NCBI RefSeq assembly: GCF_002214585.1
Contig: NZ_CP014862.1
Location: 248,001 to 312,000 of the forward strand
Length of the DNA stretch: 64,000 bases
Source: Thermococcus profundus
GTDB taxonomy: Archaea > Methanobacteriota_B > Thermococci > Thermococcales > Thermococcaceae
Direction of reading: 5' to 3'
This document shows positions 16,170 through 35,393 of this stretch, in pieces. Below the pieces are notes generated by a model. The model saw nothing but the letters and a program-made list of their open reading frames with translations, searched no databases and was not told the origin of the DNA. Numbering within the stretch: position 1 is the stretch's first letter; each line of letters starts with the position of its first letter. Both the position numbers and the translations under genes were made by a program.

Positions 16170-16801
16170 GGTACGACATAGCCAGCTACATCTACGAGCC
16201 GATAAACACGCTCCTCGAAGTCCCTACGGGGATACGGAAGGCGAGAAGGGAACTCATCAGGAGGGCCAGGGGTAAGGTTATTGAGCTGGGTGTTGGAACG
16301 GGCCTGAACCTTCCGTTCTATCCAGAAGGCGTTGAAGTCGTCGGGATAGATATCAGCGAGAAGATGCTCGAGAAGGCCAGGAAAAAGCGTTCGAAGGCGA
16401 AGGTTTCGCTTATGAAGGCCGATGCACGAAAGTTGCCCTTTCCGGATAACTCCTTTGACACTGCCGTTTCGACTTTCTTTCTCTGTGTTATCCCCGAGAA
16501 GGAGGTAGTTGTTAGGGAAATCCGGAGGGTTCTCAAGTCCGGCGGAGTTCTCCTTGCAATGGAGTGTTCTCCACCTGATAACCTCCTCTTCAGGGCGTTC
16601 CTAAATGGTCTCAGTGCGATAACGAGCAGAATAACTGGGACCAATTTCAGAACCGATATCGGGAAGCTCTTGGTGGAGAACGGGTTTTCAATAGCTAGGG
16701 AGAGAAAGCTCGCCAACGGGGCTGTAAGGGTTTTAACGGCCCTTTCTCAGAAGGAGGAGGAAGGCTATCCTGGGGAAGAACCAGCGGAGCTTCAACGTTG
16801 A
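16166..16801 (+). CDS. Class I SAM-dependent methyltransferase
   Basis: 211 residues. Motif I is VIELGVGTGLNLPF near residue 35, motif II/III VVGIDISEKMLEKA near 55 and ADARKLPFPDNSFD near 85, followed by LKSGGVLLAME. It is most like small UbiE/COQ5- or phospholipid N-methyltransferase-type enzymes; the substrate cannot be read. The start is GTG at 16166, overlapping the preceding stop (GTGA). The last 23 codons overlap the end of the convergent ubiE gene by 69 bases. Confidence 0.8.
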   Translation: MRYDIASYIYEPINTLLEVPTGIRKARRELIRRARGKVIELGVGTGLNLPFYPEGVEVVGIDISEKMLEKARKKRSKAKVSLMKADARKLPFPDNSFDTAVSTFFLCVIPEKEVVVREIRRVLKSGGVLLAMECSPPDNLLFRAFLNGLSAITSRITGTNFRTDIGKLLVENGFSIARERKLANGAVRVLTALSQKEEEGYPGEEPAELQR

Positions 16802-17422
16802 GAACCCAGCGCTTTCAAATTCTCTCGCCAGCTCCTCCGGATGAGGAAACTTCCCTATGGACTCGACGAGATAGGTGTAGGCCTTTTTATTGCCCGTTAT
16901 CAGCCCACCAACGAGAGGAACTACCCTCTCCGTGTAGAACCACGCGAGCTTTCCGAGAACAGAGGGATTCCGCGAAAATTCCAGAACAGCCAAGACTCCG
17001 CCTGGCTTTAAAACCCTGTAAAGCTCTTTAATGGCTCTTTTCCTGTCGGAAAAGTTCCTGACGCCGAAGGCAACTGTTATGAGATCAAAGCTCCCGTCGT
17101 CGAAGGGTATTTTCTCTGCGAATCCAGGAACGAGTTTCGCGAAGGGAACCTTCTTTTTGGCGACTTCAAGCATGTTCTCACTGCAGTCGAGGCCGTAGAA
17201 ATCCCCACTGATGCCTTTCTCTCCGAGCTTCTTCCTGAGACAGCGGAGCATGTCCCCTGTTCCGCAGGCGACGTCAAGAACTTTGATTTTACCAGCCGGC
17301 GGGAGGGCCTTTAACGCCTCTTCGCAGGTTTTCCTCCTCCAGCAGCAGTCGAGGTCGAGGCTTATCAGCCTGTTGGCCAGGTCGTAACGACTGGCTATGC
17401 TGTTAAACAGCTCCCTTACCAA
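16733..17422 (-). CDS. ubiE: UbiE/MenG-type quinone C-methyltransferase
   Basis: 229 residues. The N-terminus LFNSIASRYDLANRLISL is the UbiE/MenG signature, followed by LDVACGTGDMLR near residue 50, GLDCSENMLEVA, GFAEKIPFDDGSFD, and the NFSDR and KPGGVLAVLEFS elements. These enzymes add the ring methyl group in ubiquinone or menaquinone synthesis. I choose TTG at 17422 because GGGAGGGAGGAG lies just upstream and the protein then starts with the normal N-terminus. The frame remains open to 17491 inside the ATPase gene. It overlaps that gene by 20 bases and is the last gene of the long minus-strand operon. Its 3' end overlaps the convergent methyltransferase. Confidence 0.85.
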   Translation of the reverse strand: MVRELFNSIASRYDLANRLISLDLDCCWRRKTCEEALKALPPAGKIKVLDVACGTGDMLRCLRKKLGEKGISGDFYGLDCSENMLEVAKKKVPFAKLVPGFAEKIPFDDGSFDLITVAFGVRNFSDRKRAIKELYRVLKPGGVLAVLEFSRNPSVLGKLAWFYTERVVPLVGGLITGNKKAYTYLVESIGKFPHPEELAREFESAGFSTLKLRWFFPRIAFLLLLRKGR

Positions 17423-18041
17423 GCTCCTCCCTCCCGAGAACTTTCTTAACAAGAGCCGGCCTTCCCGAGAGGACGTAAACCCTGTCGGCAACCCTGAACA
17501 GTTCGTCCAGCTGGTGAGATACTATCAGGAAGGCATTTCCTCTTCCCTTCAGCTCCGAGATGAGAGCTAACAAAGCCTCGATCGAAGCCGTGTCGAGTCC
17601 CGTAAAGGGTTCATCGAGAACCGTAACGTCAGCGTCCATCAGGATGGCCCTTAAGATCGCCGCCTTCCTCCTGTTGCCGCCGCTCACTTCTTTTGGATAG
17701 AGGTCGAGATACCCTTTGAGACCGAGCCTCTCCGCCAGCTCCTCGGGCGAGCAGTCTCTCCCCCTAAACTTCAGCGGGAGGCAGACGTTCTCCCTTATCC
17801 TCTTCCAGGGGAGGAGGTAGTCCTCCTGGTAGGCGACGGCGAGGGTTCCCCTCAAGATCACCTCGCCGGAATCAGGTTTTTCCACACCGGCGATTATCTT
17901 CACGAGGGTGCTTTTTCCCGTCCCGTTCGGCCCGACTATTCCAACTACCTCCCCCCTTTTAACCTCGAGGCTAATCCCGCTGAGTATTAGTTCACCAAAG
18001 GACTTCCTGAGGTTCTTCACCAGTACCAGCGCCTCACCCAC
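17403..18041 (-). CDS. ABC transporter ATPase, NitT/TauT type (putative quinone-precursor importer)
   Basis: 212-residue ATPase. Walker A GPNGTGKST is near residue 38, Q-loop AYQEDYLLPW near 73, signature VSGGNRRKAA near 120, Walker B DADVTVLDEPF near 134 and the switch His in IVSHQLDEL near 170. The AYQxDxLLPW Q-loop is characteristic of the nitrate/sulfonate/taurine group. The start is GTG at 18041, within the permease gene (25-base overlap). It energises the permease at 18017. Substrate is unknown, but its place between UbiA and UbiE suggests an aromatic precursor. Confidence 0.85.
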   Translation of the reverse strand: MGEALVLVKNLRKSFGELILSGISLEVKRGEVVGIVGPNGTGKSTLVKIIAGVEKPDSGEVILRGTLAVAYQEDYLLPWKRIRENVCLPLKFRGRDCSPEELAERLGLKGYLDLYPKEVSGGNRRKAAILRAILMDADVTVLDEPFTGLDTASIEALLALISELKGRGNAFLIVSHQLDELFRVADRVYVLSGRPALVKKVLGREELGKGAV

Positions 18042-18748
18042 AGCTCAAGCCTCCTGAGGATCAACTGGTCGAGGGTTATCATGAGTACTATCAGCAGGAG
18101 CGCCCACGCGAAGACGCCATCCTTGAGCCCCAGATCGTAGGAGTAAACCAGCTGGTAGCCTATTCCCCCAGCGGAGCCAAAGGCCTCAGCAACGACGCTT
18201 ATTCTTAAGGCAATTCCCAGCGCCACCCTGCTGGCTGATACCATCTCAGGAAGCGTTCCTGGGACTATGAAGTGCCAGTAGAGCTGGAGCTTTGAGGGCC
18301 TCGCCAGAACAACCAGCGGGCGGTATTTAGCCAGAAGGTTCTCGCTAGAGCTTATTCCGGCAGAGAGGAGCGCCGGAAAGGCCGCCATCGCCGTGACGAG
18401 GATTGGAGCTATCGGACTCGTAACACCGAATATCATGATGAAGATTATCGTCCAGACAAGGACCGAAACGCTCTGGAGGAAGACGTTTAAAGCCGAGAAG
18501 AAGGCCTTAAGCTCTCCCGAGTAAAGCGACAGGAGTATGGAAAGTCCGACGAGGGCAAAAGCGATGAGAAAGCCAGTAAAGCTGTGATAAAAGGTTAAAA
18601 CTGTGGCGTTCAGGACTTCATTAACTCCAACGCGGGAGTAAAAGCTCAGCGTCTCACCTATGCTAGGTATTAAGGCCGGGTAGAGCTTTCCCAGCAGAAC
18701 CCAGGAAGCCACTGCAAAAATGAAAAGGTAGAGCCAGCCACGTTTCAT
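18017..18748 (-). CDS. ABC transporter permease, NitT/TauT type
   Basis: 243-residue inner-membrane permease with six hydrophobic segments and the EAA-type loop region IVPGTLPEMVSASRVALGIA near residue 165, typical of SsuC/TauC/NrtB. It works with the ATPase at 17403 and the lipoprotein at 18752. The ATG follows GGGGCTGA and begins three bases after the lipoprotein stop. The substrate cannot be seen from the permease. Confidence 0.85.
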   Translation of the reverse strand: MKRGWLYLFIFAVASWVLLGKLYPALIPSIGETLSFYSRVGVNEVLNATVLTFYHSFTGFLIAFALVGLSILLSLYSGELKAFFSALNVFLQSVSVLVWTIIFIMIFGVTSPIAPILVTAMAAFPALLSAGISSSENLLAKYRPLVVLARPSKLQLYWHFIVPGTLPEMVSASRVALGIALRISVVAEAFGSAGGIGYQLVYSYDLGLKDGVFAWALLLIVLMITLDQLILRRLELWVRRWYW

Positions 18749-18751
18749 CTT

Positions 18752-19717
18752 TCAGCCCCTGTAGAAGATGTCCAGTTTCGATGGGTCTTTTTCGAGGTAG
18801 CCTCCGAGGTAGGCCAGCCTCCACTCGGACTTTATGCCCTCTATAAGGTCGTCGTCAAGCTCGTCGTCGTTGACCTCGACTCTGTCGTAGAGGATATCGA
18901 GGGTCTTGGCATCGAGGTGGTAGAGCTTTCCGAGTATCTCCTTGGTCTCGTCCTCGTTCTCCTCCCAGAACTTGGCACTCTTCTTTTGAGCTTTTACGAA
19001 GGCCTTAACGAGGTCTGGATGCTCATCGGCGAAGTCCTTCCTCACGACCCAGACGAGCATTACAGGCTCTCCTTCAACGATGTCCCTATCCTCCGCCTCA
19101 TTCCAGAGGTCTTCGAAGGTCGCTATGACGCTTACATTGCTGGCTATAAGCTCGCTCACTATCGGCTCCCAGATGACGACGGCATCCACATCGTTGAGCG
19201 AGTCCTTTATCGAGCCGGGCGGGACGTTAACAACTGTATAGTCATCGGGCGTTAAGTTGTAGAGGACTTTCATGTAGGCCTGGAAGAGCTTGAAGGTTCC
19301 CGATGCCACAACCGCCCCGATCTTCTTCCCTCTGAGGTCTTCGGGCTTCATCTTCTTTCCGAGTATCGCCTGGTTCTGCATCATGTCAACTGCAACTATC
19401 TCTATCTCAGTCCCCCTCTGAGCAAGCTTTGCCGCCATCTCGGCAGGGATGACAGCAAAGTCCGTCTCGCCCTTCGCGAGGGCCGCTATTATGTCCGGCG
19501 TCTTCCCGAGGCGGAGAACCTGGACTCTAAAGCCGTTCTCCCTGTCGAAGCCCTTAGCCTCCATGATGTCGAGGGTGCTTATTCCTCCCATGAGCGTCGC
19601 GGCCCTAACTGTTGGGAGCTCAGTTGTCGTGCCTGTTGAGGCCTTTTCATTCGAGCCAACACATCCAGCGGTTAGGACGACCATTCCAACGAGTAGAAGG
19701 GCGAGCCATTTCCTCAT
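18752..19717 (-). CDS. NMT1/TauA-like substrate-binding lipoprotein
   Basis: 321 residues. A signal peptide ends in the lipobox LTAGC (Cys at about 19) followed by a Ser/Thr-rich linker; the rest is a type-2 periplasmic-binding fold of the NitT/TauT group (ATLMGGISTLDIMEAKGF, GETDFAVIPAEMAA, VVIWEPIVSEL). Lipid anchoring places it outside the cytoplasmic membrane. The ATG follows GGAGGTGGT and abuts the ubiA stop. The same fold is used by the menaquinone-pathway enzymes MqnA and MqnD, but those lack a lipoprotein signal, so I read this as a transporter component. Confidence 0.85.
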   Translation of the reverse strand: MRKWLALLLVGMVVLTAGCVGSNEKASTGTTTELPTVRAATLMGGISTLDIMEAKGFDRENGFRVQVLRLGKTPDIIAALAKGETDFAVIPAEMAAKLAQRGTEIEIVAVDMMQNQAILGKKMKPEDLRGKKIGAVVASGTFKLFQAYMKVLYNLTPDDYTVVNVPPGSIKDSLNDVDAVVIWEPIVSELIASNVSVIATFEDLWNEAEDRDIVEGEPVMLVWVVRKDFADEHPDLVKAFVKAQKKSAKFWEENEDETKEILGKLYHLDAKTLDILYDRVEVNDDELDDDLIEGIKSEWRLAYLGGYLEKDPSKLDIFYRG

Positions 19718-20626
19718 TCAACCACCTCCGTAGAGCTTTACCAGGACGTCGGCTATGGCGGCAAGCGTTAGTATCAGCCCGATTGGGATGTTGAGGTTGA
19801 ACGCCTTTGGCACGTTCTCAAGGTCCCTCCAGACGATGACGTTCTCGTAGATGATGAGCGCGCTCCCTATAAGCCAGCCAAGGGCGTAGATCCACCCAAG
19901 ATTATAGAGCGGAATCGCCAGACCGAAGAAGGCTATTGCTATGAGATGGAAGATAAAAGCTATCTTGAGTGCTTTCTCAATGCCAAACCTTGCTGGTATA
20001 CTTCCGACGCCGTGCTTTACGTCGAACTCGTAGTCCATTATCGCGTAGATCGTGTCAAATCCAGCCACCCAGAAGAGAACTCCAAAGAAGAACGCCCAGG
20101 GAACCCTTTCGAGGAGGACCAGCAGGTTGGCCTCGTCTCCGCCAGCCGCTATCGTCCCAGCGGTGACAGCTAAAGCGAGGGTAAGGCCTAGATGTAGGTG
20201 CGGAAAGCTGTGCTTCCTCTTCGCTCCTGAATAGCTCATGGCTATTATCCATGGAATCGGGCTTAAGACAGCGGTCCAGAAGTTGAGGAGGACGGCTGAA
20301 ACGAAGTAGAGGCTCGAGCCGACAACGACAAGCCACCAGGCGTCGCTTATCCTAACGGCTCCCTTAATCAGCGGTCTGTTCCACGTCCTCGGGTTCTGGC
20401 TGTCTATGTCGAGGTCGGCAATGTTGTTGTAGGCCATCGTTGCCGTTCTGAGGCCGAGAAGGGCTAGACTCATCCAGATGATCTCCCAGAGGGTAACCTT
20501 AAAGCCGCTCAAAAATGCTCCGACGTAGGCATACGGTAAGCTGAAAAGGGTATGCTCTATCCTGACTAGCCTCATCAATGCATGGAACCTACTGGCTTTG
20601 CCCACCTCTCCGGGATCGAAGGCCAT
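19718..20626 (-). CDS. ubiA: UbiA-family aromatic prenyltransferase
   Basis: 302-residue integral membrane enzyme with about eight or nine hydrophobic segments. It transfers a polyprenyl chain to an aromatic acid. Both Asp-rich motifs are present: NNIADLDID near residue 77 and DTIYAIMDYEFD near 195; the DxxYAxxDxxxD form is that of 4-hydroxybenzoate/menaquinone-type (UbiA, MqnP) enzymes rather than of the archaeal lipid GGGP synthase. ATG 20626 follows CGGTGA inside the ubiD end, one base after its stop. The frame continues to 20701 inside ubiD and is discarded. The likely chain donor is the product of the synthase at 34473. Confidence 0.88.
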   Translation of the reverse strand: MAFDPGEVGKASRFHALMRLVRIEHTLFSLPYAYVGAFLSGFKVTLWEIIWMSLALLGLRTATMAYNNIADLDIDSQNPRTWNRPLIKGAVRISDAWWLVVVGSSLYFVSAVLLNFWTAVLSPIPWIIAMSYSGAKRKHSFPHLHLGLTLALAVTAGTIAAGGDEANLLVLLERVPWAFFFGVLFWVAGFDTIYAIMDYEFDVKHGVGSIPARFGIEKALKIAFIFHLIAIAFFGLAIPLYNLGWIYALGWLIGSALIIYENVIVWRDLENVPKAFNLNIPIGLILTLAAIADVLVKLYGGG

Positions 20627-20627
20627 T

Positions 20628-22073
20628 TCACTCACCGAGGTACTTTTTGAAGAGTCCTTCAAGCCTTTTGAGCACTTGGGGGTCTTCCTCCACTTCCTCA
20701 ACGACCCTCCCGTTCATTTCCTCCGGGAGTTTTCTGGTGGCATCTATACCGAGCTTGCTTCCGAGCGGCGGGTTTGGAACGGCCGGATCGAGGGCATCGG
20801 TGTGGGCGTTCGGGATAACTAAAACGTCCCTCTGCGGGTCAACGAAGGAAGCTATCGCCCAGATAACTTGGTTGATGTCGTGTGGGTTGATGTCCTCGCT
20901 GACGACCACTATAACCTTAGTAAGTGCGGCCTGTCCGGTTCCCCAGAGGGCATTGAGGACTTTCTTCCCATGCCCAGGGTAGCGCTTCTTTATAGAGACT
21001 ATTGCGATACCTTGAAAGACGCCGTACTCCGGGAAGTTTACATCCACGACCTCCGGGAGGATCATTTTCATCATGGGAAGGAAGATCCTCTCGATAGCCT
21101 TTCCAATGACTGCATCCTCCAGTGGGGGCTTTCCGACGACTGAACCATAGTATATCGGGTCGTCGCGGTAGTAAACCCTCTCGGCGTGGAAAACAGGGTA
21201 AAGCTCGTTCCTCTCTGCTGGCTTGTCGTAGAAGCCGAAGTGGTCCCCGAAGGGACCCTCCTCGTGGAGCTCTTTAACATCAACGTAGCCCTCTATCACC
21301 GCTTCCGCGTTGGCCGGAACTAAAACTCCGTTGGGCAGGCGGTAGAGTTCGAGGCCCTTCCCGCGGACGAATCCAGCAAAGAGGAGCTTGTCGAGCGGGT
21401 AAGGAACCGGTGAGACCGCCGTTAATAGAGTCCCTATGTCCGAGCCGATGGCTATCGCCACGGGCATCTTTCCGCCGTTCTTCTCTATATAATCCCGCCA
21501 TGCCTGACTTCCGCGCTTGTGTATCTGCCAGTGGAGAACAGCTCTCTCGCCGTCGAGGAGCATCACCCTGTAAACGCTTATCGAGTTCACTTCCTTTGGA
21601 TCGGAGAAGCAGACGAGGGGATAGGTGAGATACCTTCCAGCGTCCCTAGGCCAGGTTTTAAAAGCGGGAATAAAGTCGAGCGGGTTGTCTTCAATAACGT
21701 TCTTCGTGAATTCAGCCTTCCTCACGACCTTTGGGAGATAAGCGCTCATCTCCTTCAGTCTTCCCAGGGAGGAGAGCTTATCGGAGAAGCCGAGCGGGAG
21801 GCCCTCGAAGAGCTTAAGCGGTCTCTCCCCTATCTCCTCAAGCCTCTCAACGCCGAGAGCATCTTTGAGCGTCTCAACGCCCGTGAAGAGGTTTCCAGCT
21901 ATTCTCCACTCGGGATAGCCCTTAACCCTCTCGAAGAGAACGGCACCAGCCTTCGAGTACATAACCCTCCTCAGAAAGGCCGGTATCTCAAGCTCAGGTG
22001 ATAGCTCTTCCTCTACTCTAATCAGCTCCCCCCGTTTCTCGAGCCAGCTTAAATATTCACGCATGTCCTTCAT
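20628..22073 (-). CDS. ubiD: UbiD-family prenyl-FMN-dependent decarboxylase
   Basis: 481 residues, the normal UbiD length. Visible family features include WPRDAGRYLTYPLV near residue 140, HWQIHKRGSQ near 180, EGPFGDHFGFYD near 277 (with the catalytic-region Glu) and VVSEDINPHDINQV near 395. UbiD enzymes decarboxylate the prenylated aromatic acid in quinone synthesis (UbiD, MqnL), and others act on unrelated aromatic acids. They need prenylated FMN made by UbiX, which is not in this window. The ATG lies three bases after the ABC ATPase stop; MREYLSW at 22064 is an alternative start. Confidence 0.88.
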   Translation of the reverse strand: MKDMREYLSWLEKRGELIRVEEELSPELEIPAFLRRVMYSKAGAVLFERVKGYPEWRIAGNLFTGVETLKDALGVERLEEIGERPLKLFEGLPLGFSDKLSSLGRLKEMSAYLPKVVRKAEFTKNVIEDNPLDFIPAFKTWPRDAGRYLTYPLVCFSDPKEVNSISVYRVMLLDGERAVLHWQIHKRGSQAWRDYIEKNGGKMPVAIAIGSDIGTLLTAVSPVPYPLDKLLFAGFVRGKGLELYRLPNGVLVPANAEAVIEGYVDVKELHEEGPFGDHFGFYDKPAERNELYPVFHAERVYYRDDPIYYGSVVGKPPLEDAVIGKAIERIFLPMMKMILPEVVDVNFPEYGVFQGIAIVSIKKRYPGHGKKVLNALWGTGQAALTKVIVVVSEDINPHDINQVIWAIASFVDPQRDVLVIPNAHTDALDPAVPNPPLGSKLGIDATRKLPEEMNGRVVEEVEEDPQVLKRLEGLFKKYLGE

Positions 22074-22076
22074 CGC

Positions 22077-22841
22077 TCAGACCTCCACCCTCGGCCTTAA
22101 AACCCTTTCACCGGCGCATTCTATAAGCTTCAGCTCCACCCCGTAGGCCTCGCTGAGGAGTCTCTCATCTATAACCTCCTCTGGCTTCCCATTGGCGATT
22201 ATTCTACCACCTTTCATCAGCAGGACCCTGTCCGCGAAAAGCCCGGCTAGATTGGGATCGTGGAGAACCACGAGTGAGCCAACCCCTTCTTTTGTGAGCC
22301 TCTTCACCGTTTGAAGAACCAGAAGGGAATTTTTAAGGTCGAGGTTGCTCGTAGGTTCATCCAAAAGGAGGTATCTTGGCGAGGTCATTAAGGCCCTCGC
22401 AATGAGGAGTAACCTTATCTGTCCGCCGCTCAGCGAAGTGTAGGGCTTTTCAGCGTACTTTTCAAGGCCGAAGAGCCTCAAAAGTTCCATCGCCTTTTCC
22501 CTGTGCTTCTTACTCGGAGCGCCAAAGGGTCCGAGTTCCGGAGTGGCTCCGAGAAGAACAAAGTCAAGGGCCTTGAACGGGAACGTTGGAACGTGGTTCT
22601 GTGGCACAAAGCCGATGAGCTTAGCCTTTTCAGATGGAGAAAGCTCGGCAATGTTCTTCCCATCAACCTCAACCTTCCCCCTCTCCGACTTGAGAAGGCC
22701 AAAAAGGAGCTTGAGGAGGGTGCTCTTTCCTGCCCCGTTCGGGCCTATTATCGCAACTAACTCTCCCTTATCTAGTGTGAGGCTGACGTTTTCAACCGTG
22801 AAATCCCCGTAGGAGAAGTAGAGGCCTTCAGCCCTCAGCAT
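22077..22841 (-). CDS. ABC transporter ATPase, heme/cobalamin/siderophore type
   Basis: 254-residue BtuD/FecE/HmuV-type ATPase. Walker A GPNGAGKST is near residue 34, Q-loop VPQNHVP near 79, signature LSGGQIRLLL near 134, Walker B RYLLLDEPTSNLD near 155 and switch His in VVLHDPN. It pairs with the permease at 23442 and the lipoprotein at 25281. The ATG overlaps the end of the flavodoxin gene by 14 bases. The substrate class of the family is iron-siderophore, heme or cobalamin. The porphyrin-enzyme neighbours favour a tetrapyrrole. Confidence 0.87.
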   Translation of the reverse strand: MLRAEGLYFSYGDFTVENVSLTLDKGELVAIIGPNGAGKSTLLKLLFGLLKSERGKVEVDGKNIAELSPSEKAKLIGFVPQNHVPTFPFKALDFVLLGATPELGPFGAPSKKHREKAMELLRLFGLEKYAEKPYTSLSGGQIRLLLIARALMTSPRYLLLDEPTSNLDLKNSLLVLQTVKRLTKEGVGSLVVLHDPNLAGLFADRVLLMKGGRIIANGKPEEVIDERLLSEAYGVELKLIECAGERVLRPRVEV

Positions 22842-23445
22842 TCCTCTCCAGCTCCCTCATCTTCTCCATGAAATCGAAGTTTCTTACTTTCTCCAGCTCG
22901 CCCCTCCTGAAGTGCTTTCCAAACCAGTCGTAGTAGAGGAGCGTCCTCCTCACGAAGGCCCTGACGTCCTCCTCCCGGTAAAGGCTCTTCCTCTCGAGCT
23001 TCTCACCCAAAGCAAGGTAAAACCTCTCCATCTTTCTTCTGTCCTCCTCGCTCAGCTTCTCCGGCTCTACTTCTCCCCCTATCAGCGTCCCGTAGAAGGG
23101 CGGAACCTCGAAGGCCTCTATCAAGGGCTGTGAATAGGCTATCCCGCCGTGCAGTCTGCCCATGAAGACAGAACCAGCGAGGTGCATCGCAACGAGGAAG
23201 AAGGCCTTGGGAACTTCTTCAAGCTTTTCCTTGTGCCTCTCAACCCACTCCATAAGGTCCCAGTGCGGGCCGTCTCGGTAAACCGGGGCGGCCATTATCA
23301 CGAGGTCGTAGCCTTCTGGGGCAGGGTTATTTTCAACCCTCTTCACGTCAACCTCGTGTCCTTTTTCCCTTAGCAATGAAGCGGTGAGCTTCACAGCCTT
23401 CTCAGTTGAGCCGTATCTCGTTGTATAAACTATCAAAACCCTCAC
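22828..23445 (-). CDS. Flavodoxin-type, HemG-like protein (putative porphyrinogen oxidase)
   Basis: 205 residues. The N-terminal flavodoxin domain opens VRVLIVYTTRYGSTEKA, the FMN-binding loop, and has YDLVIMAAPVYRDGPHWDL near residue 50 and AMHLAGSVFMGRLHGG near 90. This overall form, a long-chain flavodoxin with a C-terminal helical extension, is that of HemG-type protoporphyrinogen IX oxidase. The start is GTG at 23445, overlapping the permease stop (GTGA); the open frame above it is not coding. The extension after residue 150 (WFGKHFRRGELEKV) is not familiar. A generic flavodoxin role remains possible. Confidence 0.65.
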   Translation of the reverse strand: MRVLIVYTTRYGSTEKAVKLTASLLREKGHEVDVKRVENNPAPEGYDLVIMAAPVYRDGPHWDLMEWVERHKEKLEEVPKAFFLVAMHLAGSVFMGRLHGGIAYSQPLIEAFEVPPFYGTLIGGEVEPEKLSEEDRRKMERFYLALGEKLERKSLYREEDVRAFVRRTLLYYDWFGKHFRRGELEKVRNFDFMEKMRELERNAEG

Positions 23446-25255: not shown

Positions 25256-25280
25256 GCTCTCACCCCGAAAAGAAAAATGG

Positions 25281-26345: not shown

Positions 26346-26355
26346 CTCCACCACC

Positions 26356-27558: not shown

Positions 27559-27603
27559 TTCGACCACCATCTTTTAGGTTACCAAAATAAACTTAGCACT
27601 GCC

Positions 27604-27620
27604 GAAATATAAACCTTTCC
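27604..27620 (-). promoter_or_regulatory. Promoter of the heme/quinone operon
   Basis: On the minus strand the sequence AAAGGTTTATATTTC lies 45-60 bases before the ATG at 27558, a good BRE/TATA pair. The twelve genes downstream (27558 down to 16733) are separated by 25 bases or less or overlap, and I see no other promoter-like gap among them. Confidence 0.6.
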
Positions 27621-27660
27621 CTTGGAAGTTCGAAATTCAAAGGTAAAGAAAAAGAAGGGC

Positions 27661-28656: not shown

Positions 28657-30179
28657 CACTGACCACCTCCCGCGGCGCTAACGGCTGGGGCGGGCTTGGC
28701 GGTTGGGTCGCCCTCAACGGGCTCGGGCCCCTCCCTGACGAGCTTCTTGACGAAGTGGAGCCAGATGTAGAACAGTATCGTGTAGACCACGACGAAGCCT
28801 ATTAGGGTTATGAGAACGCTGGTTGCCGAGACGTTGGATGAGACGCCGGTGTTTACCGTAACCATTCCCCAGACCATCCAGGGCATCCTGCCGACTTCGT
28901 GGGTGAACCAGCCGGCTTCACCTGCGAACCACGGGAGCGGGAGGGTGTAAACGAGCACCTTGAGGAACCATCTAGAGTCGTAGAGCTTGCCGAGGAGCAG
29001 GAGGAGCACTCCAAGGCCGCCTATCAGGATGAAGAGCGTTCCAAGGCCGACCATGACGCGGTAGGCGTAGAACATGAATGCAACCGGAATGCTCTCCTCG
29101 AGAACCTCGACCATCTTCTCGTTTGCCTTCGGGTCGTTCGGATTAATTCCGTGGGCCCTCATAATCTGCTCGACGACCTCCTTCTTCACCTTCTCGTCTG
29201 CGTAGTTCGGGTTGTTGAGCACCTGCTGGTACCAGACGTACTCGGCCGCGTCGTGTAATCCGAGGACCTTAGCGTTCCAGTCTCCGAAGGCCAGCCAGCT
29301 CAACAGCTTAGGAATTCCTATGGCCGCTTTGACCTCCCGGTTCTTCTCGTCAACTATTCCGAAGACCAGCATAGGTGCGCCTTCCTCTGTCTTGTAGAGA
29401 CCTTCGTCGGCCGCCAGCTTGGTTGGCTGGTACTTGGCTATGACGGCACCCTCCTCATGGCCGGTTGGGTAGAGCTGGATTATCGAGCTTATAGCGAGAA
29501 CGACTATTCCTATAGCTACCGCGCTCCTTGCCACCTGAACGTGCCTCTTCTTGAGGAGGTAGTAGGCACCGACCGCGGCAACTATGTAAGCACCTGTGAT
29601 TATGGCCGAGTTGATGGTGTGGGTGTACTGGCTAACCATCAGCGGGTTGAACACAGCTTTCATGAAGTCGGTCAGCTCGGCCCTCGGTCCAAGCGGAGTG
29701 TCCTTGATTATGTACGCGGATGGAACCTGCTGCCAGCTGTTTGCTATGAGAATCCAGAGGCCGGAGAGGCTTGAACCGATGAAGACGAAGAACGAGGCGA
29801 ACCAGCTTATGACCCTCGGGAGCCTGTCCATGCCGAAGAGCAGAACGCCGATGAAGGTCGACTCCAGCGCGAAGGCGAAGAGACCCTCGAGCATCAGCGG
29901 CGGACCGAAGATTGAGCCAACGAACGTTGAGTAGTTTGCCCAGTTGGCACCGAACTCGAACTCCATGACTATTCCCGTTGGAACGCCGAGAACGAAGAAC
30001 ACTCCGAGCCACTTGCTGAAGAACTTCGCTGCCTTGTGCCACTGCTCCTCGTTGGTTATCGCCGCCATTGTCCAGAGGAGGAATACCATGAAGCCCATTC
30101 CTATGCTTGCCGGCACGAAGATCCAGTGGTAGCCTGCGGTTAAGGCGAACTGAATTCTAGACAGCAACACCGGATCCAT
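28656..30179 (-). CDS. cydA: Cytochrome bd quinol oxidase, subunit I (heme- and quinol-binding)
   Basis: 507-residue membrane oxidase subunit that reduces O2 to water with quinol electrons. Residues corresponding to known heme sites are present: His18 (high-spin heme region), His187 (TNM-type QYTHTINSA, low-spin heme b558), Glu98 and Glu106 (EGLFAFALE), and GWFTHEVGRMPW in the later heme region. In the quinol-binding Q-loop, QPTKLAADEG places Lys254 and Glu259 opposite E. coli Lys252 and Glu257. GGAGGTGA precedes the ATG. Nothing is missing that would make it inactive. A bd oxidase is unexpected in Thermococcales, classically strict anaerobes. Confidence 0.95.
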   Translation of the reverse strand: MDPVLLSRIQFALTAGYHWIFVPASIGMGFMVFLLWTMAAITNEEQWHKAAKFFSKWLGVFFVLGVPTGIVMEFEFGANWANYSTFVGSIFGPPLMLEGLFAFALESTFIGVLLFGMDRLPRVISWFASFFVFIGSSLSGLWILIANSWQQVPSAYIIKDTPLGPRAELTDFMKAVFNPLMVSQYTHTINSAIITGAYIVAAVGAYYLLKKRHVQVARSAVAIGIVVLAISSIIQLYPTGHEEGAVIAKYQPTKLAADEGLYKTEEGAPMLVFGIVDEKNREVKAAIGIPKLLSWLAFGDWNAKVLGLHDAAEYVWYQQVLNNPNYADEKVKKEVVEQIMRAHGINPNDPKANEKMVEVLEESIPVAFMFYAYRVMVGLGTLFILIGGLGVLLLLLGKLYDSRWFLKVLVYTLPLPWFAGEAGWFTHEVGRMPWMVWGMVTVNTGVSSNVSATSVLITLIGFVVVYTILFYIWLHFVKKLVREGPEPVEGDPTAKPAPAVSAAGGGQ

Positions 30180-30227: not shown

Positions 30228-30243
30228 AAACTTATAATGTTTT
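30228..30243 (-). promoter_or_regulatory. cydAB promoter
   Basis: On the minus strand AAAACATTATAAGTTTG lies about 50-65 bases upstream of the cydA ATG. It gives cydAB its own promoter, separate from the small gene upstream, whose T-run terminator lies just before it. Confidence 0.5.
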
Positions 30244-30268
30244 CGGGAAGTCGAATATTCTTCTGGTT

Positions 30269-30283
30269 AAAAAAATGAAAATT
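30269..30283 (-). terminator. Oligo-T terminator after the small membrane gene
   Basis: On the minus strand TTTTCATTTTTTT includes seven consecutive T's, some 15-25 bases after the stop of the gene at 30296. It separates that gene from cydAB. Confidence 0.5.
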
Positions 30284-30295
30284 TTGATGGCGGAA

Positions 30296-30499
30296 CTAAC
30301 TTCCCGCCTTTGGCTTGCTGAAAAAACCGATTCCATGGGCCTCGGCTGCGTAGAGAGCGAAGCCGACAGTGAAGAGCATTCCTACCACAATCCATACAAC
30401 GTTGTGCAGCAGGAATGCAAACAATACGAACAGCAGTGTCAAGAGTATGGCGACCAGTCCTATCGTTACCTCCTTCCCGGTTTCAGCTTTCACGGCCAT
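30296..30499 (-). CDS. Small membrane protein upstream of cydAB
   Basis: 67 residues with two hydrophobic helices (about 12-31 and 35-52), a charged N-terminus and a GFFSKPKAGS tail. The ATG follows GGTGAT, and a TATA-like AAAACGATATAAGA lies 35-48 bases upstream, so it is probably a real gene. It sits divergently to the SQR-like gene and in the same direction as cydAB. It could be a small accessory subunit of the oxidase, as CydX/CydS are in bacteria, but it has two helices rather than one and no recognisable motif. Confidence 0.6.
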   Translation of the reverse strand: MAVKAETGKEVTIGLVAILLTLLFVLFAFLLHNVVWIVVGMLFTVGFALYAAEAHGIGFFSKPKAGS

Positions 30500-30533
30500 G
30501 GTGCATCACCAGAAGTTGACTTGACCTTCGCTT

Positions 30534-30547
30534 CTTATATCGTTTTC
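30534..30547 (-). promoter_or_regulatory. Promoter of the small membrane gene
   Basis: Minus-strand AAAACGATATAAGA, with a start expected about 25 bases downstream, just before the GGTGAT ribosome site. It faces away from the SQR promoter 45 bases further on, so the two may share a regulator. Confidence 0.45.
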
Positions 30548-30589
30548 GGCAGATAGCTATTCCAAACTGAAAGGGTACGATAATCAAAA

Positions 30590-30602
30590 GGGTTAAATAC
30601 CC
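30590..30602 (+). promoter_or_regulatory. Promoter of the SQR-ferrochelatase-polyprenyl synthase operon
   Basis: AAGGGTTAAATACCC at about 30588-30602 is a TATA candidate 45-55 bases before the ATG at 30648. The genes that follow to 35393 are separated by 30 bases or less. Confidence 0.5.
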
Positions 30603-30647
30603 AAGTTTCCCAATTTTTTTAGACATGCCTAACGAGGAGGTGCAGTT

Positions 30648-31796
30648 ATGGCGAAGGTTTTGATACTCGGCGGAGGAACCGCCGGACTGGTCGCTGGGAG
30701 GTATCTGACTGCTGAGGCAAAGAGACTTGGGATTGACGTTGACGTAACGATGGTCACCGCGAGCGAGAGGCACTACATGCCGCCGCTGTTCATGGAAGTG
30801 GCCTTGGGTTCAGCCGCTCCACATGAAACGTGGGCACCGATAAAGAACGCGGAAAAGGTCTATGGCTTCAAGGTCGACATCGATAAAGTTACGGACATAG
30901 ACTTAGCTAACAGGCATGTAAAGACCGAGAGCGGAAAGGTCTACGACTACGACTACCTCTTCCTCGGCCTCGGTGTCAAGTACGTCTGGGACAAGTACAA
31001 GGGCATGAACGAGTACGGCTACCACAACTTCACGCTTGATGGGGCGGTTGAGCTCCACGAGAAGCTCTTCCAGTTCAAGGGAGGTAAGGTAGTCATCTAC
31101 ACTCCAGAGGGGCCACACCGCTGTGGAATCTACCCCTACGAGATGAGCCTCAACCTCAGGATGTACTTCGAGCACCGCGGAATAGAGGACGTCGAAATAA
31201 CCGTCGTCCACCCTGATAAGGAGCCTGCCATCGGACTCGGACCCGACTTGATCCGGTTCTTCAGCAGGGAGATGGAGAAGGCTAGGGTTAAGTTCATACC
31301 AAACGAGGGTCACGTCGAGATAACGCCCAACAAAGTCGTCACCAAGAACGCAGAAGTCGAGTACGACCTCCTCATAAAGGTGCCGCCGATAGCGATACCG
31401 GATGTTATGGCCTTCATGGCCGACGATAAAGATCCAAGGTGGGCGAAGGTTAAGGGACCGGACTTCAGGTATCCTGACTACGATGAAGTTTACATCGTCA
31501 GCGAAGCTTCAATGCCACCACTTGGACTCCTTACCGCTGGCGTTCCGCTCCACAACGCGGCGATAGTTGCTTCAACTAGCATACTCCACAGGATACACGG
31601 TGGTTATCCGGTTGCCGAATACGCGCCGACCCTCTGTGTGGGACACGGCTATAACACCGGCTTCTCAGGAAACTGCGAGTACGAGTGGAAGGGCAACAAG
31701 TACAAGCGCGAGTGCTACCTGCTCTTCAAGAGCCCGCTCGTGAGGCTGATGAAGGATTCCTTCTACAGGGGCTGGCTCGACAGCCTGAGGTTGTGA
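30648..31796 (+). CDS. Sulfide:quinone oxidoreductase/NDH-2-like flavoprotein
   Basis: 382 residues of the SQR/type II NADH dehydrogenase family, peripheral membrane FAD enzymes that reduce quinone. The FAD site LGGGTAGLVAGRYL is at 7-20, and the second segment YDYLFLGLGVKY is near 101. Cys159 (HRCGIYPYE) matches the SQR cysteine usually at about 160 and Cys330 (TLCVGHGY) is in the region of the third SQR cysteine; the first one (near 128) is not seen. Two more cysteines (343, 356) lie in a C-terminal segment. GGAGGTG precedes the ATG. The DUF1641 partner downstream is typical of SQR-linked loci. Sulfide is the likely donor, as sulfur reduction makes it abundant. Confidence 0.82.
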   Translation: MAKVLILGGGTAGLVAGRYLTAEAKRLGIDVDVTMVTASERHYMPPLFMEVALGSAAPHETWAPIKNAEKVYGFKVDIDKVTDIDLANRHVKTESGKVYDYDYLFLGLGVKYVWDKYKGMNEYGYHNFTLDGAVELHEKLFQFKGGKVVIYTPEGPHRCGIYPYEMSLNLRMYFEHRGIEDVEITVVHPDKEPAIGLGPDLIRFFSREMEKARVKFIPNEGHVEITPNKVVTKNAEVEYDLLIKVPPIAIPDVMAFMADDKDPRWAKVKGPDFRYPDYDEVYIVSEASMPPLGLLTAGVPLHNAAIVASTSILHRIHGGYPVAEYAPTLCVGHGYNTGFSGNCEYEWKGNKYKRECYLLFKSPLVRLMKDSFYRGWLDSLRL

Positions 31797-31806
31797 GGTG
31801 GTGAAG

Positions 31807-32229
31807 ATGAGCGAACTTAATCTCACTCCGGAAGAGATAGCGGCCGTTAAGGAGCTCGCCGAGGTTGCTCTAGCTCTCAAGAAGGGCGGGACCCTCGGCC
31901 TGCTCAAGGCCGTGACCGAGAACGGAGACAAACTCCTCGAGACCATAGCGGAGGAAAAGGCAGTTTTGAGACTCCTCGGTGTTGGAAACGCGGCCCTCGA
32001 ACCCGTTAGAGAGCTTGAAACGAGCGAGGTCAGGGAGATAGAGTGGAACACCGAGGAACTCGTTAGGGCGCTCCTTAAGGCTTTGTCTAAGACGGATCCG
32101 AAGGAGATCCCGAGGGTTGGCATGACGGCTGCACTCGGTTATCTCAGAGATGAGGACGTTCAGAAGGGCCTCGGCTTCCTGCTGACCCTCGCCAAGAACC
32201 TCGGAGCGGCCATGAACGGCAAGCTCTGA
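31807..32229 (+). CDS. DUF1641 protein, partner of the SQR-like enzyme
   Basis: 140-residue helical protein, with no membrane segment, matching the DUF1641 pattern (ending VGMTAALGYLRDEDVQKGLGFLLTLAKNLG). In other prokaryotes this family is found beside SQR or FAD dehydrogenase genes. The function is unknown; a scaffold or membrane-docking role has been supposed. ATG 31807 follows GAGGTGG; the upstream GTG codons at 31798 and 31801 overlap that site. It begins ten bases after the flavoprotein stop. Confidence 0.72.
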   Translation: MSELNLTPEEIAAVKELAEVALALKKGGTLGLLKAVTENGDKLLETIAEEKAVLRLLGVGNAALEPVRELETSEVREIEWNTEELVRALLKALSKTDPKEIPRVGMTAALGYLRDEDVQKGLGFLLTLAKNLGAAMNGKL

Positions 32230-32257
32230 CCCTTTCATTCTTTATGGGGGTGAACTC

Positions 32258-33145
32258 GTGAGGATTCTCTTCACTTACATGGGAGCGCCCACAACTCCAG
32301 ATGAAATAGGGGACTTCATCTTCCGCTTCCTCTACGATGTCAGGCACCACATAGGCCTCGACGTTCCAGGGGCTAGGGTAATAATCAAGGGAATAGCTAA
32401 GGCCAGGGCGAGGCAGGTTAAATCCCACTACGACGCGATAGGTGGTAAAAGCCCCCTCGTGGATTACATGCGCGAGATAGCTGAAGGGGTGAGCGAGAGA
32501 ACAGGCTATGAGATAGAACTCGGTATGTGCTACTCAAGGCCACTCCTTGAAGAGATTGAAGGGCCCTTCGATTTGGTCTTCCCGATGTACCACGTCTATT
32601 CAAGCTCAACGACAGAGCGCTGTCTCGTTAAAATCCGTGAACTCTTTGGCGAAGTTCCCTATGTAAGAGAGTGGTATGAGAACGGGAAGTTCGTTGTGTG
32701 GGTCAGGGAGAACATCAGGGCTGGCCTTAAAGAGAGCGGCTTTGAGAACCCTTACGTTATCCTAAGTGTTCACAGCCTTCCGAAGAGGGTCATAGACGAG
32801 GGTGACCCCTACCTAGAGAGCCACCAGAAGCTTGCCAAAACCGTCATGGAGGCCTTTGACTCCCCCTGGGAGATCGCCTTCCAGAGCAAGTTCGGAAAAG
32901 GTGAATGGCTCGGCCCGGATGTTCCCGAGGTCCTTGAAAGGCTGAAGGGAGAGGGAGTTGAGGAGGTTCTAGTTTATCCGCTCAGCTTCCTGGTTGAGAA
33001 CATCGAGACCCTCTACGAGCTGGATGTTGAGTATAAGGAGGTCGCCGATAAACTCGGTTTGAAGTACTACCGCGCCAGGTTGAATCACCGCAGTCCCCTG
33101 CTCATCGAGGCTATCTCGGAGGTGATTGAGAATGCATCCGGTTAA
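32258..33145 (+). CDS. hemH: Ferrochelatase
   Basis: 295 residues, inserts Fe(II) into a porphyrin. The signature is clear: VILSVHSLPKRVIDEGDPY near residue 170 with the catalytic His, AFQSKFGKGEWLGP near 205, and NIETLYELDVEY near 250 with the conserved Glu. The start is GTG at 32258 behind GGGGGTGA. Such enzymes act on protoporphyrin IX (HemH) or coproporphyrin III (CpfC). No upstream porphyrin synthesis gene is in the window. In the middle of the SQR operon it would supply heme to cytochrome bd. Intact. Confidence 0.92.
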   Translation: MRILFTYMGAPTTPDEIGDFIFRFLYDVRHHIGLDVPGARVIIKGIAKARARQVKSHYDAIGGKSPLVDYMREIAEGVSERTGYEIELGMCYSRPLLEEIEGPFDLVFPMYHVYSSSTTERCLVKIRELFGEVPYVREWYENGKFVVWVRENIRAGLKESGFENPYVILSVHSLPKRVIDEGDPYLESHQKLAKTVMEAFDSPWEIAFQSKFGKGEWLGPDVPEVLERLKGEGVEEVLVYPLSFLVENIETLYELDVEYKEVADKLGLKYYRARLNHRSPLLIEAISEVIENASG

Positions 33146-33170
33146 AACCCAAACCCGTGAGGTGAGCGAT

Positions 33171-33506
33171 ATGAGGAGCTTTGCCAACGCTTTCATAGCC
33201 TACATCATGGGCTTCGTCGGGGGAATTCCCCTTATACTAATGAAGGACACCGACGAGTTCACCAAGAAGCACGCGGCCTACTCCAGCGTCCTCGGATTTT
33301 TCGCCTGGCTGGCGTTCATGGCGGTCTGGCACATGCCCGTGAACAAGGTCTACCCCCACTTCGGGCCGGCTATCTACGTCGTTTACGCCTGGTTGATATA
33401 TGCTCTCTTTGGAATTTACACCTACATGAGGGGCAGGCTTTACAGAATTCCCGGAATAGACGGTCTCGCCGAAAAGCTCATTAAGGGCCTCTCCAACGCC
33501 GTGTGA
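33171..33506 (+). CDS. Small membrane protein, possibly DUF4870-like
   Basis: 111 residues with three hydrophobic segments and the stretch FTKKHAAYSSVLGFFAW near residue 31, similar to the HA-containing region of DUF4870/Tic20-type proteins. ATG 33171 follows GAGGTGA; an ATG at 33132 would lie within the ferrochelatase end. Located between ferrochelatase and the DUF3887-like gene. Function not known. Confidence 0.6.
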   Translation: MRSFANAFIAYIMGFVGGIPLILMKDTDEFTKKHAAYSSVLGFFAWLAFMAVWHMPVNKVYPHFGPAIYVVYAWLIYALFGIYTYMRGRLYRIPGIDGLAEKLIKGLSNAV

Positions 33507-33515
33507 GGGATAACC

Positions 33516-34472
33516 ATGAAAAAAGCCCTGGTAATCTTTCTTTTTGCTCTCATACTTTTATCGCCTGTTTTCGCCAGCTCTCCTGCTCGAGGCGACGAAT
33601 TCATGGGGAAGTTTATTGGGGCGATAAACACTGGGAACTACTCCCTTATAGAGCCGTATATGAGCGACGAGCTTAAGGCGCAGTTCACGGAGGACTACTT
33701 CCAGAACCTCAGGGAACTAACGCTGAAAAACTACGGGAAACTGAAGGAGTTTACCTATGATGGCAACGAGACCCGGGGGGATTTGTTAAGGCTGAAATAC
33801 ACGGTCAATGCCGAAAAGGGCTCGTTCCCGGTTCTCATCGTCTACCGCAACGATGAACTCGTTGGTCTTGCCCTTGGACTAACTCCGAAGCCCAACCCCA
33901 CGGGCATGCTCGCGGCCATGGGGGGTGCGCTAATCGCTTTAGTTGGTCTCTACCTGTGGAAGAGGAGGCTGAGCCTTTCGGAGCTTGCGTTGGGTTCCGG
34001 GCTGGCGCTGGTTCTTGCAATAATCCTTCCATTCTACTCCCTAACCGGAACTCTCCTCCTTTCAAGGGCTGTTTCCATTCCACTAGTATCTCTCCTCAGC
34101 GCTCTGACTATCGAGGCTGGAAAGTACTACCTGGCAAAAAACAGAGATGGCCTCTCCATTGGCCTCGGTCTCGGCATCGGTCAGTTCATCCTTCTTGGGA
34201 TAGGAACGTTCGTTGCCACCAACTTCATAATGAAGCTCCCTGTCTCGTTCACCGGAGACGTTCTGCCTTTATTCCTTGAGGCCGTGATTTTCACTGCTTT
34301 CTATGCTTTGAGCACGGAGGTCTACTCAAAGAAGAGGGGCATGCTGCCTTTTACGGTTTTTGTGATATTTGAGTTTCTCTCGCTCTACCTCCTCGGTCTT
34401 GGGAGTGTCTACGGCTCACTGGTAATAGCTCTGGCCGGAGCCGCGTTAGCCTGGAAGCTCGGGGGTGAATAA
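33516..34472 (+). CDS. Signal-peptide membrane protein with DUF3887-like and YhfC-like parts
   Basis: 318 residues. A signal peptide (1-20, ending VFASSPA) is followed by an external domain with FIGAINTGNYSLIEPYMSDE near residue 32 and LKNYGKLKEFTYDG, which resembles DUF3887. From about 125 there are six or more membrane segments, and EAGKYYLAK near 205 resembles the conserved Glu region of YhfC-type putative membrane peptidases. The ATG lies ten bases after the previous stop. The domain calls are by eye. Its place between ferrochelatase and the polyprenyl synthase suggests a maturation or transport role at the membrane. Confidence 0.6.
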   Translation: MKKALVIFLFALILLSPVFASSPARGDEFMGKFIGAINTGNYSLIEPYMSDELKAQFTEDYFQNLRELTLKNYGKLKEFTYDGNETRGDLLRLKYTVNAEKGSFPVLIVYRNDELVGLALGLTPKPNPTGMLAAMGGALIALVGLYLWKRRLSLSELALGSGLALVLAIILPFYSLTGTLLLSRAVSIPLVSLLSALTIEAGKYYLAKNRDGLSIGLGLGIGQFILLGIGTFVATNFIMKLPVSFTGDVLPLFLEAVIFTAFYALSTEVYSKKRGMLPFTVFVIFEFLSLYLLGLGSVYGSLVIALAGAALAWKLGGE

Positions 34473-35393
34473 ATGGAGTCGCTGGATTCAAAGATGCTGG
34501 AATTCCTTGAGGGGAGCGTTGAACTGGCCCAGAAGGTCAGTGAATACGTCATAAAGAGCGGCGGAAAGAGGATAAGGCCGAGAATAGCTCTGGCCGTTTC
34601 GAGGGGCTTCGGCCTCGATGAGAGGGACGCCCTTGACCTGGCCGCTTCAATAGAGCTCATCCACACCGCCAGCCTAATCCACGACGACATAATAGACCTT
34701 GCCGAGAAGAGACGGAACAATCCGACCGTTGTGATGCGCTGGGGTCCTGAACTGGCTGTTCTGAGTGGAGACTTCCTATTCATAAGGGCTCTCCGGGTCA
34801 TCGCTTCCAAGAAGCTTGAGATGGTCGACTACGTTGCCAAAGTGGTTGAGGATATGGTGAAGGCGGAGATACTCCAGGAAGCCGTTAGGGGAACCGTCCA
34901 CCTCGACGTTGAAACATACTACAAAATCATCGATGGGAAGACCGGGAGGCTCTTCGGGGCTTCATTTGCCCTCCCCGCGTACTACCTTGGAAAACCGTTT
35001 TGGAGGGAGCTTGACAGTGCTGGAACGCTCGTAGGGAGGGCCTTCCAGATAGTTGACGACGTCCTTGACTACTTCCCCGGAACCGGAAAGGACCGCTTTA
35101 AGGATCTCCTGAACGGGAAAGCCACGCTCCCGCTCATCCTCTACACGGAACGCTACGGCTCTTCCCTAGTTGAAAAGACCCTCAGAGAACCCACCGAGGA
35201 AAACCTCCTTGAGCTCTTCGAAAGGATGAGGAGTTCGGGGGTATTCACAGAGGCCGTTGGGATTGCCAGGGATTTCGTTGAGGAGGCCCTTAGAACGATC
35301 TCGTCACTTCCGTTCGATTCAAAATCGGTTGTTGAACTTGTTTCCAGTTACTTCGGAGGTGCCTTCGCGAAGTTTGAAAACCTCTCGCCGTAG
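34473..35393 (+). CDS. Long-chain polyprenyl diphosphate synthase
   Basis: 306-residue trans-prenyltransferase, cytoplasmic or membrane-associated. It has GGKRIRP near residue 30, the first Asp-rich motif HDDIID near 70 and the second VDDVLDY near 198. The five residues before the first motif are Ala-Ser-Leu-Ile-His, with small residues at positions -5 and -4, as in long-chain (hepta- to decaprenyl, IspB-like) synthases, whereas short-chain enzymes have bulky residues here. It begins immediately after the previous stop. A long-chain product fits a quinone side chain and UbiA at 19718. Archaeal lipid GGPP synthase is the alternative. Confidence 0.82.
   Translation: MESLDSKMLEFLEGSVELAQKVSEYVIKSGGKRIRPRIALAVSRGFGLDERDALDLAASIELIHTASLIHDDIIDLAEKRRNNPTVVMRWGPELAVLSGDFLFIRALRVIASKKLEMVDYVAKVVEDMVKAEILQEAVRGTVHLDVETYYKIIDGKTGRLFGASFALPAYYLGKPFWRELDSAGTLVGRAFQIVDDVLDYFPGTGKDRFKDLLNGKATLPLILYTERYGSSLVEKTLREPTEENLLELFERMRSSGVFTEAVGIARDFVEEALRTISSLPFDSKSVVELVSSYFGGAFAKFENLSP

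Follow-up and report, generated by a model that had tools for sequence, protein, structure and literature searches.

A conserved cytochrome bd, quinone and heme gene block in Thermococcus that may depend on salvaged cofactor precursors

Introduction

Thermococcales are usually called strict anaerobes, and an O2 reductase encoded together with quinone and heme enzymes in one of them raises the question of where such a chain would obtain its cofactors. The genes form a block at positions 16733-35393 of a 64,000-nucleotide stretch of Thermococcus profundus DNA (contig NZ_CP014862.1, positions 248,001 to 312,000 of the forward strand; hereafter the window). The host genome (2.04 Mb, two contigs, 99.96% complete) has Thermococcus species as its close relatives. 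The initial annotation of the window proposed that heme and quinone are both made by the block itself and used to pass electrons from sulfide (or NADH) to O2. Our analysis points to a different answer: the block would encode an O2-respiring chain of two enzymes whose cofactors are completed from salvaged precursors, namely imported porphyrin and a ring acid that is imported or comes from another source. We give this reading a probability of about 0.55.

Results

Organization of the block

Family profile searches found UbiE, UbiA, UbiD, CydAB, a flavoprotein resembling sulfide:quinone reductase (SQR), a ferrochelatase, a radical SAM protein, a flavodoxin and a polyprenyl synthase as open frames between 16733 and 35393. 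All genes named in the initial annotation were confirmed by strong family matches, its HemG-like label being the weakest. The genes are arranged in two divergent operons, one on the minus strand (16733-30179) and one on the plus strand (30648-35393), with 468 bp between them. Within each operon adjacent genes overlap or are separated by no more than 28 bp; the one larger gap, of 90 bp, lies between cydB and the radical SAM gene.

In the order of transcription, the minus-strand operon contains cydA, cydB, a radical SAM/SPASM gene (TIGR04053), an IsdE-like lipoprotein substrate-binding protein, a second Peripla_BP_2 protein, a FecCD permease, a flavodoxin, an HmuV-like ATPase, ubiD, ubiA, a TauA/NMT1-like lipoprotein substrate-binding protein, its permease and ATPase, and ubiE. 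The plus-strand operon contains the SQR-like gene, an adjoining DUF1641 gene, the ferrochelatase, a small membrane protein, an exported DUF3887/NTF2-like protein with a membrane part, and the polyprenyl diphosphate synthase. Two ABC importers are included, one of the TauA/NMT1 type (17403-19717) and one of the FecCD type (22077-26378). Wherever contigs permit, gene order is identical in the carriers, and since the same order recurs in 18 genomes, the block is not a chance arrangement.

Cytochrome bd and the SQR-like flavoprotein

27661-28659, minus strand: cydB (PF02322, 8.2e-78; TIGR00203 over its cut-off)
28656-30179, minus strand: cydA (PF01654, 2.1e-145; residues aligned to E. coli CydA, 6rko)
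30648-31796, plus strand: SQR-like flavoprotein (NF049943, 115 bits; relatives are type III SQR and flavocytochrome c sulfide dehydrogenase)
31798-32229, plus strand: DUF1641 protein (PF07849, 1.6e-11), 1 bp after the SQR-like gene

The alignment to E. coli CydA bore out the claim that the heme and quinol residues of cytochrome bd are intact. H18, H187, M376, E98 and E106 correspond to H19, H186, M393, E99 and E107 of the E. coli protein, and K254, E259, E421 and R431 to K252, E257, E445 and the Arg of GRxPW. These ligand and quinol-loop residues are invariant in the CydA of the relatives except for E421. At the gene level, CydA and CydB thus have the features of a cytochrome bd quinol oxidase, for which O2 reduction and the binding of hemes b558, b595 and d are predicted. 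Cytochrome bd is known to be sulfide-resistant (PMC4815019).

The best alignments of the SQR-like protein were to Acidianus SQR, flavocytochrome c sulfide dehydrogenase and mitochondrial SQR. It has the FAD-binding fold and the two redox-active cysteines of an SQR: C159 and C330, which correspond to C178 and C350 of Acidianus SQR (3h8i), are invariant in 18 genomes, as are two further C-terminal cysteines, C343 and C356. A fold search with a low-confidence structural model gave Aquifex SQR (3hyv) as the best match. The fold, the FAD motif and two of the redox cysteines are common to this protein and the known enzymes, but identity is about 20-24%, Cys129 of Acidianus SQR has no counterpart, and C343 and C356 are extra. 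Its 115 bits did not reach the cut-off of 525 for NF049943, which models a selenoprotein subtype, and for this reason we keep the name at SQR-like.

Heme genes without the early heme pathway

22077-22841, minus strand: HmuV-like ATPase of the FecCD-type importer (NF010068, heme ABC ATPase, 214 bits, below the cut-off of 261)
22828-23445, minus strand: flavodoxin, weakly HemG-like (PF12724, 3.7e-17)
23442-24383, minus strand: FecCD-family permease (PF01032, 5.1e-78)
24380-25255, minus strand: Peripla_BP_2-like protein with no visible signal peptide (PF01497, 4e-7)
25281-26378, minus strand: lipoprotein Peripla_BP_2 substrate-binding protein, IsdE-like (PF01497, 1.3e-26; IsdE, 66 bits)
26356-27570, minus strand: radical SAM/SPASM protein (TIGR04053, 523 bits, 3e-157, cut-off 395)
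32258-33145, plus strand: ferrochelatase HemH (PF00762, 1.9e-63; TIGR00109, 188 bits, cut-off 124.6)

HemB was found in none of the 94 Thermococcales genomes and HemC in none of the 19 genomes tested for it, and each search gave control matches in 11 of 14 reference genomes. To our knowledge, every known tetrapyrrole route uses HemB and HemC. De novo tetrapyrrole synthesis is therefore very unlikely, and with both enzymes absent we rejected de novo heme synthesis; the proposal of self-made heme is not supported. A ferrochelatase without HemB and HemC makes sense if porphyrin is taken up, and the carriers probably obtain the starting materials of both heme and quinone from their surroundings.

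The catalytic residues of a ferrochelatase, H172 and E250, are invariant in HemH among the carriers. HemH scored nearest to the human enzyme, with Met8 at the position of the human Met, and coproporphyrin-type enzymes scored lower, a comparison of scores that does not imply the substrate. In the radical SAM protein the CxxxCxxC motif and the SPASM cysteines are conserved. Its second-best family is the heme b synthase AhbD (9e-90), at 302 bits against a cut-off of 500. The description of this protein as heme-pathway-like thus stands insofar as it is a relative of AhbD, but its own family is TIGR04053. At a loose threshold TIGR04053 matches all genomes through paralogues, and we counted only matches that passed the cut-off and, at the locus itself, matches split by contigs.

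As a true menaquinone-dependent HemG, the flavodoxin was rejected: it scored 37 bits against a cut-off of 142 and had no specific relative in the PDB, so that flavodoxin is the only safe label. The IsdE-like protein has a lipobox cysteine (Cys32) in all compared genomes.

A second FecCD-type importer set (substrate-binding protein, permease and ATPase) lies together with an FmdE-like zinc-finger protein at 43238-46852 on the plus strand. We considered this set (43933-46852) as a backup heme importer and rejected it, since it is not beside the block in other cyd genomes.

Quinone genes

16733-17491, minus strand: ubiE/menG-type quinone C-methyltransferase (PF01209, 1.3e-54; NF001244, 221 bits, cut-off 216)
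17403-18041, minus strand: ABC ATPase of the TauA/NMT1-type importer (PF00005, 1.8e-27), conserved with the block and cut by the deletion scar described below
18017-18748, minus strand: ABC permease of the same importer (weak PF00528; SaoP/NtrB-like)
18752-19717, minus strand: NMT1/TauA-like lipoprotein substrate-binding protein (PF09084, 3.8e-15; taurine-binding protein 6ssy, 3.7e-17)
19718-20701, minus strand: UbiA-type prenyltransferase, MqnP-like subfamily (PF01040, 2.1e-40; NF009609, 404 bits, over its cut-off)
20628-22073, minus strand: UbiD-family decarboxylase, closest to MqnL (PF01977, 1.6e-62; TIGR03701, 421 bits, below its cut-off)
33126-33506, plus strand: small predicted membrane protein (weak DUF4870), in all carriers examined
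33516-34472, plus strand: exported NTF2-like (DUF3887) domain with about six membrane helices (DUF3887, 27 bits, below its cut-off)
34473-35393, plus strand: polyprenyl diphosphate synthase (PF00348, 1.1e-52)

At the gene level the tail of the quinone pathway is complete, with UbiA, UbiD, UbiX and UbiE all encoded. UbiX lies outside the block and was present in all 19 genomes tested, so that the prenyl-FMN cofactor for UbiD is available. UbiE probably starts about 70 bp inside the listed TTG, and UbiA probably at 20626. UbiA scored 196 bits with MqnP_DT versus 110 with UbiA_proteo, and its Asp motifs NNIADLDID and DYEFD are conserved; UbiD scored 421 bits with TIGR03701 versus 320 with the E. 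coli-type model. These better matches to the MqnP- and MqnL-type models, at scores below those models' cut-offs, point to naphthoate as the putative substrate and a menaquinone-like product. In this the block resembles the tail of the futalosine menaquinone pathway (MqnP, MqnL, UbiX/MqnM, MenG), but it differs from that pathway in the absence of MqnA and MqnD. The polyprenyl synthase keeps both Asp-rich motifs and has Ala at position −5 of the first DDxxD, and its product is probably of long chain.

MqnA/MqnD (PF02621) was found in none of the 94 genomes. UbiC chorismate lyase (PF04345) was found in none of the 19, with control matches in E. coli only, so this family is narrow in reach. Ring synthesis by the futalosine route or by UbiC was rejected on these results. 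The proposal of self-made quinone is thus supported only for its late steps, in which the ring is prenylated, decarboxylated and methylated and UbiX is available; for the ring itself, the two routes searched (MqnA/MqnD and UbiC) gave no match. The substrate-binding protein of the TauA-like importer has a lipobox cysteine (Cys19) in 15 of 16 compared genomes, and this importer is a candidate for uptake of the ring acid, its putative substrate.

The model of the protein at 33516-34472 has a pLDDT of 83, with the DUF3887 structure 4hyz among its fold matches, and the protein occurs in all block carriers examined. Its NTF2-like pocket could bind a small ligand.

Distribution, loss and exchange of the block

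CydA was found in 18 of the 94 Thermococcales genomes, about a fifth, all from the genus Thermococcus. HemH was found in 19, the 18 cydA carriers and G066, and strong matches to the SQR-like protein came from the same 19. In G066, a bin of 88% completeness, the contig in question is 3.3 kb long and starts 76 bp before the SQR gene, so the missing cydA is uninformative there. The presence of UbiD alone was rejected as a marker of co-occurrence because a further UbiD homologue is present in almost all genomes. It is the second, stronger copy alone that tracks cyd, being present in 17 of the 19, and both exceptions stop at contig breaks.

A survey of co-occurrence in Thermococcales had been set beforehand as a test of the initial annotation, with genes not inherited together as the outcome that would speak against it. 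What we found is the reverse: the quinol-oxidising O2 reductase, the quinone tail, the heme-related genes and the SQR-type reductase are inherited as a unit, and HemH and the SQR-like protein occur only with cydA, bar one fragmentary bin. The sole true exception to the shared gene order is T. gammatolerans EJ3 (G019), which lacks, as a single piece, the six-gene cassette (22077-27570) bounded by the HmuV-like ATPase and radical SAM genes.

On a four-protein tree the presence of cyd requires about nine changes, and 17 of the 19 carriers fall in two clades that also contain non-carriers. The closed cyd-minus genome G028 has a scar at L128:13500-15100. There ubiE is whole, the ABC ATPase ends at the match to window position 17712, and the sequence resumes within the polyprenyl synthase at 34861. 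It amounts to one deletion, equivalent to about 17 kb, that left both joined genes truncated, and GAGATAC is shared where they meet. The block was therefore once present in G028, which probably lost it in one step.

In Mantel comparisons with species distances, the core block genes gave weak correlations (r 0.06-0.48), and the polyprenyl synthase and the right flank gave 0.78 and 0.66. The divergences of the core block genes agree with one another better than most of them agree with housekeeping proteins. This hints that the block may have been exchanged between Thermococcus species, and with proteins so strongly conserved we read it as no more than that. The comparison also suggests that the polyprenyl synthase has a history partly separate from the rest of the block; the whole gene is present in G020, which lacks cyd.

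Neighbouring genes

Directly to the right of the block is a Mrp/hydrogenase-4-like antiporter cluster (35491-43117, plus strand), the first gene of which has close relatives in many cyd-less Thermococcus genomes. The cluster was rejected as a quinone-reducing complex I, since its genes match antiporter-type membrane subunits and close copies occur in cyd-minus species. On the left flank, a few kb from the block, is a flavodiiron protein (11715-12992, minus strand) with ODP metallo-beta-lactamase and flavodoxin domains. In several cyd genomes, too, such a protein is encoded close to the block, and in the cyd-minus genome G025 it is close to the matching right-flank gene; as another type of O2-reducing enzyme it fits a setting of O2 defence. 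Epimerase-like and methyltransferase genes (15345-16801, plus strand) adjoin ubiE and are retained in many cyd genomes, and both are apparently frame-broken in G028. A poorly conserved frame of 93 amino acids (30275-30556, plus strand) in the divergent spacer between cydA and the SQR-like gene occurs in only some cyd genomes; it could be a true gene or belong to a regulatory region.

Discussion

In the chain that we propose, the FecCD/IsdE-like importer would bring in porphyrin (or heme), HemH would put iron into porphyrin, and the AhbD-like radical SAM protein and the flavodoxin would finish or adapt the macrocycle. The TauA-like importer, encoded between ubiE and ubiA, would import an aromatic acid, which UbiA would prenylate with a long-chain diphosphate, UbiD decarboxylate and UbiE methylate to give a menaquinone-like quinone. 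Thermococcus cells that reduce elemental sulfur (S0) produce much sulfide. The SQR-like protein would oxidise this cell-made sulfide to sulfur and reduce quinone, and cytochrome bd would re-oxidise the quinol with O2. The net result would be that O2 is removed, S0 is returned and some charge is moved across the membrane. We think that the main benefit is O2 defence with a modest energy gain. A more far-reaching version is possible, though we would wager somewhat against it: a removable operon pair of these hyperthermophilic, sulfur-reducing fermenters would import and finish both porphyrin and ring acid in obligate salvage, SQR and cytochrome bd would burn the cell's own sulfide with O2 and recycle S0, and HemH, the AhbD-like radical SAM protein and the flavodoxin would form a new porphyrin-to-heme salvage route.

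Several points weigh against the salvage-dependent chain. The chain is a prediction from genes, as are its heme, quinone, O2 uptake and expression. The ligands of both importers are guesses from family membership, and the FecCD permease scored best with BtuC, so that cobalamin or a siderophore is possible as its ligand. T. gammatolerans lacks the FecCD/flavodoxin/radical SAM cassette yet has cydAB and hemH, and the cassette is therefore not strictly needed there. The position of CydA E421 is Leu or Met in three genomes (G050, G058 and G069); the corresponding E. coli E445 is a heme-centre residue, and the other ligands are kept in these three. The structural model of the SQR-like protein has low confidence, for which reason we prefer the sequence evidence. 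Finally, the searches for early heme and quinone steps covered HemB, HemC, MqnA/MqnD and UbiC, and a ring acid could come from another route, such as that through MenD and MenF.

There are other explanations as well. The six-gene cassette (22077-27570) could be a separate island for iron, siderophore or cobalamin, with porphyrin or heme entering otherwise and only hemH and cydAB mattering; T. gammatolerans, which keeps the rest without it, and the BtuC score agree with this. We consider it unlikely, though worth serious thought, as the cassette lies between cydB and ubiD in an operon with almost no gaps, is found in every other cyd genome whose contig spans the site, and includes a radical SAM protein related to heme b synthase. 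It is quite unlikely that the donor of the quinone reductase is NADH or another compound in place of sulfide, in an NDH-2-like role. The protein belongs to the same flavoprotein superfamily and NDH-2 structures are among its fold and sequence matches, but SQR and flavocytochrome c sulfide dehydrogenase match it best, and it has both SQR redox cysteines at aligned, invariant positions; Streptococcus agalactiae, by contrast, is the user of NDH-2.

If the block were a leftover of lateral transfer, in decay or seldom of use, this would account for the roughly nine state changes on a small tree, the 17-kb deletion scar in G028 and the replacement of CydA E421 in three genomes. Against it, all frames are intact in this genome, the operons are compact, and apart from E421 the key residues do not vary among diverged species; we regard a remnant as very unlikely. 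More improbable still is that the organism makes heme and quinone wholly by itself and that the block is a self-sufficient chain: the quinone tail and the ferrochelatase are in its favour, but HemB, HemC, MqnA/MqnD and UbiC are absent. The ring searches covered MqnA/MqnD and UbiC, and MenD or another route may supply the ring.

The salvage-dependent chain resembles known bacterial systems. S. agalactiae respires with cytochrome bd only when external heme and quinone are supplied, and its menA is in the cyd operon (PMC6030563). Lactococcus lactis, one of our reference genomes, has CydA and HemH and lacks HemB and HemC. Like our block, these systems combine a fermenter, cytochrome bd, an incomplete heme route and a quinone tail enzyme beside cydAB. 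They differ in their NDH-2 donor and mesophilic bacterial host, and no radical SAM/FecCD cassette has been described in them. By analogy, the block fits their gene pattern, with cytochrome bd present and early heme genes absent, and a dependence on external cofactors is predicted from it. The block also shares a radical SAM/SPASM relative of AhbD with the archaeal ahb-nir heme route, but an archaeal survey found Thermococcales without any tetrapyrrole genes and HemH in only three Thermoplasmatales (PMC3004389). T. gammatolerans has HemH in our analysis, whereas that survey lists none for it.

Parts of the block have been reported before. The 2009 genome paper of T. gammatolerans described cydAB for the first time in Thermococcales, with ubiE, ubiA and ubiD adjoining (tg1226-tg1233), as in our block, and proposed O2 protection and a likely horizontal acquisition of the cydAB system (PMC2718504). 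Unlike our analysis, the passages of that paper dealing with these genes are silent on SQR, the ferrochelatase and DUF1641, and on the lack of heme and quinone routes (PMC2718504). In 2012, the cydAB of T. gammatolerans and AM4 were placed in one laterally acquired clade (PMC3512248). In the open-access literature (subscription journals and preprints were outside our search) we found no description of SQR, HemH and the radical SAM cassette with the block, or of the missing early pathways. The view that the set had no earlier description therefore holds for the extended set and not for cydAB with ubiE, ubiA and ubiD, or for the lateral acquisition of cydAB. What appears to be new is the extended gene set, together with where it occurs and the absence of the early pathways. 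The most interesting form of the finding is the reverse of self-sufficiency, a respiratory chain that seems to need other organisms for the precursors of its cofactors.

Thermococcales are used as models of anaerobic life without quinones and cytochromes. If the chain works, a sizeable part of Thermococcus would consume O2 by a heme-quinone system with parts supplied by neighbours. This would explain survival in vent mixing zones, link the use of O2 to cofactors supplied by the community, and add an archaeal counterpart to the lactic-acid bacteria that respire when fed heme and quinone.

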